From contig JAKQEA010000201.1 in NCBI GenBank assembly GCA_029558715.1, positions 1 to 56,894 on the forward strand: 56,894 bases of DNA, read 5' to 3'. The notes under the pieces were generated by a model, which saw only the letters and a list, made by a program, of their open reading frames with translations, did no database searches and was not told the DNA's origin. A program made the position numbers and the translations under genes. The stretch comes from Bacteroidota bacterium. GTDB taxonomy: Bacteria > Bacteroidota > Bacteroidia > Chitinophagales > Chitinophagaceae. Positions 15,990 through 23,532 of this stretch are shown here, one piece after another. Within the stretch, counting starts at the first letter, position 1. The number at the start of each line of letters is the position of its first letter.

Positions 15990-18914
15990 ATGCGCTTCAA
16001 ATCACTTCTTATTACAGGCCTTATATGTGTTGTTGAATTATCATCTTTTGCACAAACACAAGATGATTTCAATAACAAACTATCGGACATTTACACAAAT
16101 GCAGCGGACAAAAAAAAGGCATTGGCTATTGCCAAAGAACTGTTCACAATAGTGGAAAAGAAAAAAGAGCTCCAGACCTATGCTAACTATTACTTACTGA
16201 AATCTGTTTTTGAGAACCAGGCTCCTGATGCTACACTGGCAAAGACCTGTGAAGAGAAAGCTGACAAAATAATGAATGCCCAGGTAGGCTTAGCTACTGC
16301 TCCTACGGTAGATACTACGAATCCGGTCATGGCATGGGCCACCTATTATTTCCCTGCTTTGTTTACCAATACTGACCCTGATAATGCCGCAAAAGCGTTG
16401 CAGTATATTAACAGGAATCCGTCATTGAAAAATTTTACGAATTATACTTATATCGCTTATTCATTTGAACGCAATAATGATTTTCGAAAGGCCAAAGAAA
16501 ACTATGAATTAGCCATACGCCTGGCAGGTAATGAAAAAGAAGAATACCATTCGTATCTTTTTTATACTAATTTTTTAACCCGCAGCGGTGATTACCTGAA
16601 AGCGGAAGAGTATATCCGGAAAATGGAGTCATTATCAGAGGCAGCATCTGACTACTTTAAAACCGGGTACAGGGCAGAAGCCATGTCGGCAAAGATTGTC
16701 TACTATCTTACTATCGGGGATTACCAGTCATATGTGCAGGCTTCTGAAAAAAGTTATGATTACTTTTCCGCTAACTGGCAACAAAATAATAAAACAGCAT
16801 GTGACCCGTATCCTGGTATTCGCTTTACAAATGCGGCCTTTGGTAAAGAAATGCTGAGAGATTATGCTGCAGCTGAAAAACTCTGGAAAAGCCGTGACTC
16901 GGTAAATTATATATGGGTGGACTGCTATAACAAAACCTATCCAAATAGTCGCTACTACCCTATTTCCATGTACCCTGTTTTCCTCGCCAAAACAGGAAAA
17001 ATTTCAAAGTTGTCAAAACCTGCTTCCTTTTATATTAAAGAAATTGAAGATCATTACAACAGCTATAGTCAGTATGCGGATATCAGTGCCTCATTTATGA
17101 AAGCTACGCAACTTGGTTTCCTGGGCAGTCCGAAATATCCTGCTTTATTTAAACCGGTCATGCAGGAAGTAAGAACGACGCAAAACTTCCGGGAATCAAC
17201 AGAACCATTTTCCAATTATGCATATTTCAGTATGCGGGATACGAAGTATGAAGAAGCTGCAGAGACCTATAGTGAATTATTTAAGATAAACGCTGGCTGG
17301 ATCAATGATATTATTTTTTCGTTTGGAGAAAAAGCTTTTGCTACCTATTACAATTCCAAATTAAAAGAAGGATACCAGAACTACCACAGTTTTGTGAAGA
17401 TCGCCAAAGAAAGAAAATTATCATTATTCCCGCAATTATCCCGGCAGGCTTACAATAATCTGCTTTTTATTAAATCCATCTCATTAAAAGGCACACAAAA
17501 AAGAAAAGAAGCATTTTTGAATGCCAACGATCCTGCTATTACAAAGCTGTATGATCAATGGATAGATAAAAAACAACTGCTGATCAGGCAATACCTGAAG
17601 ACGGCTGACCCGGCCGGGGTGGATACAGTCAACAAAATAAATACGGCCCAACTTAATAAATTACAGGAAGAAGTAAACCAACTGGAGAATGAACTGACCA
17701 TTAAGTCAAGAGATTTTAAAAAATACCTGACCCTGACTCCAATCGACTGGAAAGTGGTAAGAGATCAGCTTAAAGAAGGAGAAGCAGCTATCGAAATGAT
17801 CCGTTTTCAATGGAGAGATAAAGTTTATTACTCAGATACTGTTTATTATGCTGCCTATATCATCAGGAAAAACAGCCTTTACCCGGAGGTGGTGTACCTG
17901 GCAGATGCAGCTGCAAACCTGGAAAACAAATTCTACACGACTTATAAAAATAATATCAAATTCAAACTGGAGGATAAAGAATCATATGATCATTACTGGA
18001 AACTCATCGGGGAACAATTAAAGGGAATCAGGAAAGTTTATTTTTCACCCGATGGTATCTATCACCTGGTCAACATATCGACACTGAAGAACCCGGAGAA
18101 CCAGAAATTCCTGCTGGATGAAATTGAGATTCAATACACCAGTTCCGGTACTGATATTAATAATAATGCAGTAAAAGATATCAGCACAGCCATACTCATA
18201 GGCAGACCTTCCTATAAAATGAATACTACACCCACAGCCAGCACCGGAAAAGACGAGACAAGGTCATATATAAGGAGTTTCAGGGATGAGAATATACCCG
18301 ACCTGCCAGGAACCGAAGAAGAGATACTGAGTATTAAAAACGAAATGTCCGGACAGAAGATTACTGTGCAACATTACCTGAAAGAAGAGGCGACAGAAGA
18401 CAAACTATACAAACTGCATAGTCCCGGTATCCTGCATATTGCCACACATGGCTATTGGTCTTCTGCCGGGGAAAATGCAACAGAAGGATACCGGGTGTTC
18501 AATGCAATGGCTAATTCGGGGCTACTGCTTTCCGGGGTAATTAATTATTACAGCGCTGCCAGTTACCCGGATACTTATGACGGGATACTCACGGCATATG
18601 AAGCACAAAATCTTGACCTTGAAAATACATCGCTGGTAATTTTATCAGCCTGCGAAACAAGTTTAGGTCACCTGGATGCAGGAGAAGGCGTATATGGTTT
18701 ACAGCGGGCATTCCGGGCCGCCGGAGCTGGTAGTGTTATGACAAGCCTTTGGAAAGTAGATGACAAAGCTACAAGGGATTTTATGATCTTGTTCTACCAG
18801 CAATACCTGAAGACGAAAGATAAATCTGCCGCTTTTATCGCAGCACAAAAGGCCATTAAAGAAAAATATATACATCCATATTTCTGGGGCGCCTTTGTGA
18901 TGATGGGGGAATAA
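15990..18914 (+). CDS. Secreted TPR-CHAT caspase-like protease
   Basis: 974 aa. A signal peptide (1-21, '[17 protein letters not shown]') implies export. Residues 30-500 are helical repeats of TPR character (Tyr/Ala/Leu patterned, e.g. '[16 protein letters not shown]'), followed by a coiled-coil-like stretch (about 545-575, '[18 protein letters not shown]'). The C-terminal third is a CHAT domain with both catalytic residues of the caspase clan: His820 in 'LHIATHGYW' and Cys888 in '[11 protein letters not shown]'. The end '[13 protein letters not shown]' is typical of complete CHAT domains. CHAT proteases cleave specific partner proteins; TPRs usually recruit or sense the partner. The acyl-carrier-like gene follows after 19 bp, so the two are probably co-transcribed. 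The target is unknown. Confidence 0.9.
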
Positions 18915-18933: not shown

Positions 18934-19635
18934 ATGGGATTAGATAGTGTAGAATTAGTAATGGAGTTTGAAAAAAAATTTGGCATTGAAATCCCGGATG
19001 CCGATGCTGAGAAATTAACAACCGTTGGCCTTGTACATGAATACATCTATAATAGAATTTTATCTACAAAATCAAACCATTGCTTATCCCAATATTTATT
19101 TTACAAAATAAGACGATACTGTTCCGACAATTTTGGAGTTTCAAAATCGACAATAAATGTAAAATCGAATATCAACGAAAAATTTCAAAAACAGAACAGG
19201 AAAGTAGAGTACAAAAAATTTTCTGAAGCGATGGCAATAACAGTTCCTGAATTAACACTTAGCAACAAAACAAAAAAGTTGTTAAAAATAATCGGAAGTT
19301 CATTAATATTAGGCAGTTTAATAGTTGCATTTCTTTTAACCTCTTTTTTTTCTTATTCGAAATGGTTCTATATGTTGCCTGTTGCAGGCATTATTCTCAC
19401 AATACTTATATCACAACTTCTAAATCCGTATAGAACGACAATAAACCCAATGCTTGTAAAAGATTATATATACAAATTAATATCTCTTAACTACGCACAG
19501 CTAACGGAGAACAACCATCTTTCTAAGCAAGAAATAATTTCAGTTATTAATCAGGTTATAGTTGATAAAATCGGGGTAGAAATGGAAGAATTAACCCCAG
19601 AAAAAAGCTTTACGGATGACCTCGGAGTTGACTAA
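18934..19635 (+). CDS. Membrane protein with permuted acyl carrier protein halves
   Basis: 233 aa. The protein begins at the phosphopantetheine site of an acyl carrier protein: '[18 protein letters not shown]' then '[13 protein letters not shown]' (residues 1-32) are ACP helices II-III, with Ser5 as attachment residue. A linker with '[13 protein letters not shown]' (50-62) follows, then two transmembrane helices (about 117-139 and 144-163). The C-terminus (198-233, '[15 protein letters not shown]', '[14 protein letters not shown]') is ACP helix I and loop, stopping exactly where the Ser would follow. Helix I is thus at the wrong end, as in a circular permutation. No frameshift explains this: upstream the frame meets a stop inside the CHAT gene, and downstream sequence is not ACP-like. 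The gene looks more AT-rich than its neighbours. I know of similarly laid-out unnamed proteins but no described function. Confidence 0.75.
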
Positions 19636-22863: not shown

Positions 22864-23532
22864 ATGGGCACTGCAGAGATCAATAATCAGCAACTTATCA
22901 TTCATTCCCATATCATTACTTACGGTAATGCGGCCAACGAAGAATTGTCCGAAATGATCCGTGAAGAAATAGAAACCATGTGGAATGAACCGAAAGGAAG
23001 TGTTGAATTAGACGGGTCAGTGTTCAGCGTTTTTTTCAGGATTACCTCTTCCTTCCAACCCACTATAACTGATATTGACATTTACCAGAATCTTGATCCC
23101 CGCAATAATTATTTTCGCATCGAAGAATTTGCCCATGGCAATATTTCTTTTGTAGATGGGCTCGGTTGTAATAGTGGTTACCTCAAACTGGAAAATTTAT
23201 ATAAGGGGTCGACAACTGCAGCACATGAATATGGACATACATTAGGGCTGGACCATCCCGATAATCTTGATATCAGGGGTAAGGGTGTACCCGGCATCAT
23301 GTATCCAAGAGGAACACTGGTCGATCCGCAATACCAGTACGACCCGGATAAACCGGCTGGTACAAAAGGAGGCACCATGCACCCGATGTACAGGAAAGTT
23401 TTACAGAAAGATATCAGCATGCTAAAATTGCAGCAACTGAATTTTGAGAACGGCAAAGCCATAATGGGAGAGTTTACCAATGTCTGGCATCCCAATCATT
23501 CAGATATAGATTTAAATAGTTTCCTGGCCTGA
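22864..23532 (+). CDS. Small metzincin-type zinc metalloprotease
   Basis: 222 aa. The motif 'AAHEYGHTLGLDH' gives the metzincin zinc site HExxHxxGxxH with His121, Glu122, His125 and His131. Met146 in 'GIMYPRG' is the expected Met-turn. The family is M10-like or a close relative. No signal peptide, transmembrane segment or propeptide cysteine switch is visible: the protein begins 'MGTAEINNQQLIIHSHI'. That is unusual for metzincins, which normally act outside the cell. The ATG at 22864 is 5 bp behind the stop of the secreted SH3-like protein, so the two are translated from one message. It could be a cytoplasmic toxin-like or self-exported protease; the substrate is unknown. Confidence 0.82.
   Translation: MGTAEINNQQLIIHSHIITYGNAANEELSEMIREEIETMWNEPKGSVELDGSVFSVFFRITSSFQPTITDIDIYQNLDPRNNYFRIEEFAHGNISFVDGLGCNSGYLKLENLYKGSTTAAHEYGHTLGLDHPDNLDIRGKGVPGIMYPRGTLVDPQYQYDPDKPAGTKGGTMHPMYRKVLQKDISMLKLQQLNFENGKAIMGEFTNVWHPNHSDIDLNSFLA

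Follow-up and report, generated by a model that had tools for sequence, protein, structure and literature searches.

A putative circularly permuted acyl carrier protein-like protein with glycine at the position of the carrier serine

Why would a protein have an acyl carrier protein (ACP) split into halves that stand in swapped order at opposite ends of its chain? The question is raised by a gene at 18934-19635 (+) in a 56,894-nucleotide stretch of Bacteroidota DNA (contig JAKQEA010000201.1, Chitinophagaceae; the whole stretch is called the window here). An earlier note on the gene had read the product as beginning at the phosphopantetheine motif, with Ser5 as the site to be modified; it would be a membrane-bound permuted ACP if its two ends fold together, and a domain-swapping protein if they do not. 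The open reading frame is intact, with an ATG start, 233 amino acids and a stop codon immediately after DDLGVD, and upstream of this ATG, as far as the preceding in-frame stop, there is no ATG, GTG or TTG. The gene and the features of its two ends are listed below with the evidence used.

18934..19635, + strand: whole gene, putative circularly permuted serine-less double ACP protein, 233 amino acids (open reading frame, profiles, homologues)
18934..19062, + strand: N-terminal half, ACP helices II-IV, residues 1-43, with L3 equal to ACP L37 (NCBIfam, hhalign, 1acp_A alignment)
18937..18939, + strand: Gly2 codon, at the ACP Ser36 position; glycine in all 32 members counted (hhalign, 1acp_A alignment, conservation table)
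18946..18948, + strand: Ser5 codon, the phosphopantetheine site of the earlier note; equal to ACP position 39; serine in 27 of 32 members (1acp_A alignment, conservation table)
19519..19632, + strand: C-terminal half, ACP helix I and DLGVD, residues 196-233, with D233 equal to ACP D35 and the stop directly after (NCBIfam, hhalign, conservation table)

Two ACP units in one chain

Residues 3-41 matched the NCBIfam model NF002148 at ACP positions 39-77 (whole-protein E 7.5e-23), and residues 196-233 matched NF002147 at ACP positions 3-40 (E 1.4e-15); PF00550 likewise matched the 233-residue protein. The match to ACP in swapped order lies far beyond chance. The terminal ACP unit thus runs II-III-IV ... 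I along the chain, unlike the I-II-III-IV of functional carriers. The proposal of swapped halves, with helix I and DLGVD at the C-terminus, was therefore upheld, and the circular permutation of an ACP that it implied is supported.

The register of the opening differs from the one first proposed. In hhalign the N-terminal half aligned to ACP with E 9.9e-19, beginning at L3, the residue after the ACP serine, and from L3 onwards it paired without a gap with LDTVELIMEFE of ordinary ACP (ordinary ACP sequence: LDTVELIMEFEKEFNISIPD). In a profile search of the PDB, position 3 fell on residue 37 of 1acp_A, whose attachment site we take to be Ser36. Ser5 therefore corresponds to position 39, and Gly2 stands at the place of Ser36. 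Of the claim made for the N-terminus, the presence of ACP helices held (II-IV here, II-III in the note), while the start at the phosphopantetheine motif with Ser5 was not confirmed. The chain is opened between ACP positions 35 and 36, with one extra residue, taken as Met1. The invariant Ser36 that follows D35 in functional carriers is missing, with glycine at that position in 32/32 members.

The two terminal halves would likely pack into a single ACP fold. AF2 monomer models gave high local confidence at both termini. In an underpowered and not end-specific test of mutual information, pairs joining the two ends made up 1.09 times their expected share of the top 60, below the pairs that join the C-terminal end to the last part of the middle region (1.37 times). 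Among the best 60 of 102 PDB sequences no full-length structure of the family was found, and the best stretches fell within positions 3-47.

The region between the halves was divided as follows.

19075..19263, + strand: residues 48-110, the beginning of the middle ACP-fold domain with its helices I and II (VIA superposition on ACPs, hhalign)
19264..19419, + strand: residues 111-162, a hydrophobic helical hairpin that interrupts the middle ACP fold between helices and is missing from shorter homologues (AF2, hydropathy)
19420..19509, + strand: residues 163-192, the end of the middle ACP-fold domain (AF2 helix 175-185; VIA ranges of the ACP rows reach 183-196)

In the VIA superposition on ACPs, the matched ranges of the AF2 model fell within 45-196, with the helices of the middle unit in the normal order I-II-III-IV. 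The middle region scored 23.4 against ACP in hhalign, and the maximum over 200 shuffles was 14.6. A Foldseek search of the PDB with the whole-protein model gave no match at E <= 0.001, so the fold evidence for the middle unit is the VIA superposition and not that search. By eye, the family sequences contain no conserved serine at the equivalent site. By structure prediction and profile comparison, the middle is thus an ACP fold without the conserved serine and with a hairpin inserted. Between the ACP halves the AF2 model has a pair of long hydrophobic helices (111-138 and 143-162), in agreement with the two membrane helices described before; that description captured the hairpin but overlooked the second ACP fold around it. 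The K/R counts flanking the hairpin point to neither membrane side for the termini. The hairpin is optional in the family: a 19-residue stretch of mean hydropathy >1.6 was present in none of the 46 members of up to 200 amino acids among 81 aligned members, and in all 35 members longer than 200.

By sequence, profile and predicted structure the protein consists of two ACP units, one opened between positions 35 and 36 and the other a whole ACP fold in mid-chain. This bears on the suggestion that an ACP was duplicated and its outer halves lost. The permutation in that suggestion was supported, but the duplication has to be revised: because the middle is itself a whole ACP fold, it would take three or more ACP units, or else a tandem pair that was permuted.

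Distribution and conservation of the family

When 294 genomes from the family, with the gene's own genome among them, were searched at protein level, 14 further full-length homologues were obtained, which were 28-44% identical in alignment A1. All 14 start with M-G-[LM]-D-[ST] and end with DLG[IVLM][DN]-stop, and the matches in most of the remaining genomes were ordinary ACPs or members of a divergent group. Selective constraint was analyzed in nine close pairs (dN/dS 0.04-0.21 in eight, undefined in the ninth, with dS near saturation in several). Because the boundaries recur among homologues and dN/dS is low, a frameshift or truncation artefact was rejected, as the earlier note had argued from the flanking sequence.

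Species genomes were scanned as well. This gave 116 stretches encoding a relative, of which 80 were kept, 79 of them genome loci. The scan was anchored on the start motif MG[LM]DS[VI]E and did not select for the end, so it says nothing for Gly2 or Ser5. The DLGxD end point (within one residue) was found in 76 of the 79 loci, the exceptions being L094, L107 and L110. Conservation of both boundaries, which the earlier note had asked about, is supported, the start being judged on homologues found without the motif. A complete ACP at either end was seen in none of the family sequences inspected, and L113, an ordinary-order ACP, is not a member. According to their record titles, placed in phyla by ourselves, the 79 loci span about eight phyla, and many are metagenome-assembled genomes (Bacteroidota, Acidobacteriota, Cyanobacteria/Melainabacteria/Obscuribacter, Planctomycetota, Alpha-, Beta- and Gammaproteobacteria, Verrucomicrobiota, Gemmatimonadota and Riflebacteria). 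Alignment A3, from which the 81 members above were taken, omits L113, L107, L094, L110 and seven further loci (six duplicate the gene of a kept row and L044 is close to L072), and retains a few genes present twice.

Within these groups the distribution is patchy. Full-length copies occurred in 15/294 genomes of the same family, and a match of this group was present in three of 395 genomes in a Bacteroidota sample (L001, L144 and L145). In the order of L078, 19/53 genomes had any match at E <= 1e-15, and in a phylum sample around L056 the only positive among 99 genomes was L056 itself.

Residue conservation was tabulated for 32 members collected with no start-motif filter: 15 from the same-family search, 16 from Obscuribacterales and L144. 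The Obscuribacterales rows came from a hidden Markov model search whose model was built partly on motif-selected sequences. L055, L059, L078, L082, L083 and L086 were counted because the same genes were also recovered without the motif; L145, L198 and L201 (group B-like), L199 (cut at the start) and L200 and L202 (frame broken) were omitted, as was group B in its entirety. Position 5 was Ser in 27 members, Thr in two, and Tyr, Leu and Gly in one each, and the position of D35 was Asp in 25, Cys in three, Asn in two, and Gly and Val in one each. D38, E41 and E47 were each kept in 31/32 and I54 in 32/32; we take these four residues to be partner contacts of AcpP, and the acidic face of helix II formed by the first three is present as for ACP partner recognition. 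The phosphopantetheine signature has thus eroded while these four residues stay. Outside the 32 members, L145 starts with MEAEDLIHRVEETFG and lacks both Gly2 and Ser5.

The divergent group (L020, L021, L023-L032 and L146-L152) has the middle and the hairpin in common with the main group and opens the ACP elsewhere, starting around ACP position 23 and ending around 29-31. Its matches to ACP are weak (E 2.8e-5 for the N-terminal half, 1.3e-3 for the middle and 2.4e-4 for the C-terminal half). Position 36 could be read in 12 of 18 sequences: five have Pro there, three Asp, and one each Gly, Ser, Arg and Glu. With no fixed residue at this position, serine loss is general and the fixed glycine a trait of the first group.

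Several copies are broken. In the Planctomycetota copy L094:3893-4577, an in-frame stop lies between the N-terminal half (42 amino acids) and the remainder, which may be a natural split or decay. In L110:10001-10522 the C-terminal half is swapped for other sequence after 173 amino acids, and the copy looks truncated by rearrangement. The frame of L107 is broken beyond 56 amino acids, and L019 and L022, from the same-family search, are also broken copies.

Possible functions

What the family conserves is the fold and the DLG loop, together with the glycine and the acidic face of helix II. Because the canonical attachment serine is missing in both units, a normal carrier role appears unlikely. 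The swapped layout with glycine for serine recurs in many bacterial kinds, which makes imitation probable: the protein probably imitates an ACP rather than acting as one. That it is an ACP mimic which docks on ACP-binding enzymes is put forward tentatively, and the two-ACP architecture with a mimic role, as the whole explanation, is one that we hold with slightly more doubt than confidence. In such a mechanism the chain ends would pack as one ACP fold, which without Met1 would have the residue count of an ACP nicked at its active site. The canonical site could not take phosphopantetheine, the acidic helix II face (D38, E41 and E47) would dock onto ACP-binding enzymes, and the mimic would recruit or restrain one of these enzymes; hairpin-bearing members would do so at the membrane.

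One clade offers a candidate client. Of 16 intact Obscuribacterales copies, ten are linked to a PhyH (PF05721) dioxygenase, three of them as a fusion at the PhyH C-terminus and seven with a same-strand PhyH inside the examined flank; the remaining six show no PhyH in flanks that are mostly only 1.5 kb. The client in Obscuribacterales would likely involve this linked PhyH-type dioxygenase, and the fusion is a testable functional handle. The fusions keep the glycine though it is internal and not N-terminal. In the in-frame fusions L188, L189 and L195, a C-terminal Cys stands where Asp is usual.

The protein was compared with known systems. It resembles type II AcpP (PF00550 / TIGR00517) in helices II-IV, in helix I with DLGxD, in the acids 38, 41 and 47 and, by prediction, in the fold of its middle domain; it differs in its swapped halves, the glycine at 36, the extra internal ACP fold and the optional membrane hairpin. 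Tandem ACPs likewise have two ACP units per chain, an example being the prodigiosin doublet ACP 5y08, which was matched in VIA; in the present protein one unit splits the other, both are without the conserved serine and the tandem order is permuted. Mitochondrial ribosomal protein L50 (PF10501), with weak matches below its cut-off, is a case of ACP-like sequence used structurally; L50 is a serine-less non-carrier, but it is a single, unpermuted, ribosomal unit. The ACPs of complex I and of Fe-S-cluster assembly were also VIA matches to the fold of this protein; they serve as docking subunits but keep the serine and an acyl-phosphopantetheine. In the open-licence full texts of PubMed Central, nothing relevant was found among the matches listed on permuted or split ACPs or on serine-less ACP-like proteins. 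The phosphopantetheine serine is the defining residue of the textbook ACP fold. A family whose chain opens exactly there and has glycine instead would show that an essential hub protein has been circularly permuted in nature, and would supply a serine-less probe of ACP recognition ready for use. For annotation the protein is a hazard: NF002148 scores above its cut-off (80.2 vs 71 bits) though the carrier serine is missing, and automatic annotation could therefore label the protein an acyl carrier protein.

Other explanations were weighed against ACP imitation. A mobile single-gene accessory function in defence, immunity or stress, with the ACP fold as a mere stable scaffold, seems unlikely. 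It would suit a patchy orphan gene with varying neighbours, and some Flavobacterial copies lie in arrays with intergenic repeats, one case being less clear. Among four Flavobacterial loci examined, L070:1-20591 and L074:1-20591 have imperfect repeats (copies of about 35-160 nt) between many small same-strand genes; these arrays look cassette-like and the repeat ends look inverted by eye, while L079 has fewer repeats and L061 repeats of another kind. The retained ACP-specific surface residues argue against an accessory scaffold, as does the PADLOC defence scan, in which three of four proteins had no match and L070 had one weak match (E 0.012). Moreover, viral_contigs contained no family member (one ordinary-order ACP protein was found) and plasmids a single partial match. 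A canonical integron found no support: no integrase exceeded the TIGR02249 cut-off in any of the four genomes, and weaker recombinase matches occurred in all four Flavobacterial genomes and equally in 14/14 control genomes.

A domain-swapped oligomer, with each N-terminal half completed by the C-terminal half of a different chain, is somewhat less probable again. A whole domain separates the halves and nothing here fixes their pairing in cis; the high AF2 monomer confidence at both ends is compatible with cis packing and speaks against swapping, indirectly.

The carrier of the earlier note, with Ser5 loaded by a phosphopantetheinyl transferase and acyl groups carried at the membrane, is doubtful. 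GLDS does resemble the GxDS motif, Ser is the commonest residue at position 5, and NF002148, the one model over its cut-off among 17 matching NCBIfam models, would name the protein an acyl carrier protein. This reading would demand a three-residue deletion within helix II, yet the alignment is gap-free from L3 and both AF2 models predict a helix over 3-16; position 5 is Thr, Tyr, Leu or Gly in 5/32 members, and Cys, Asn, Gly or Val replaces D35 in 7/32. Phosphopantetheine on Ser5 was thus not borne out, the register being off by three and the residue not conserved, and a Ser5-linked carrier appears unlikely for these reasons.

There is little to recommend an N-terminal carrier or sensor in which Met is removed and the Gly2 alpha-amine, at the Ser36 position, is acylated or otherwise modified. 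The invariant glycine follows the start codon directly in 29/32 members (28 with an ATG-type Met and L192 with GTG), and methionine aminopeptidase normally removes the Met from Met-Gly starts; but the glycine is internal in the three PhyH fusions, which leaves no free amine, L145 lacks it, and the neighbouring genes included no recurrent acyltransferase. A carrier without prosthetic group, whose glycine alpha-amine would bear cargo directly after Met removal, guided by the ACP docking face and anchored by the hairpin in the second pseudo-ACP, is the least probable of these readings.

Gene neighbourhood

A conserved operon partner was sought and not found outside Obscuribacterales. No Pfam family recurred more than twice in 91 same-strand nearest neighbours, and clustering of 1248 neighbour open reading frames (loci L034-L112) gave no common partner, the largest cluster covering seven loci at varied distances. 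The CHAT gene of the window and its two large neighbours, one AsmA-like and one FadJ-like, had no match at E 1e-4 among these 1248 frames. A 974-residue CHAT-domain (caspase-like) protein at 15990-18914 ends 19 bp upstream of the permuted ACP gene, and the gene for the FadJ-like enzyme lies downstream.

The same genome also encodes an ordinary AcpP (G000:C6:50350-50577). Its C-terminal half recurs at the start of contig C179, ahead of a gene that resembles FabF by eye; because the encoded end is identical, this fragment is probably the same AcpP gene split by a contig break. Elsewhere in the window, a 222-residue protein at 22864-23532, with no Pfam match at E 0.001, carries the motif HEYGHTLGLDH, which we take to resemble that of metzincin metalloproteases.
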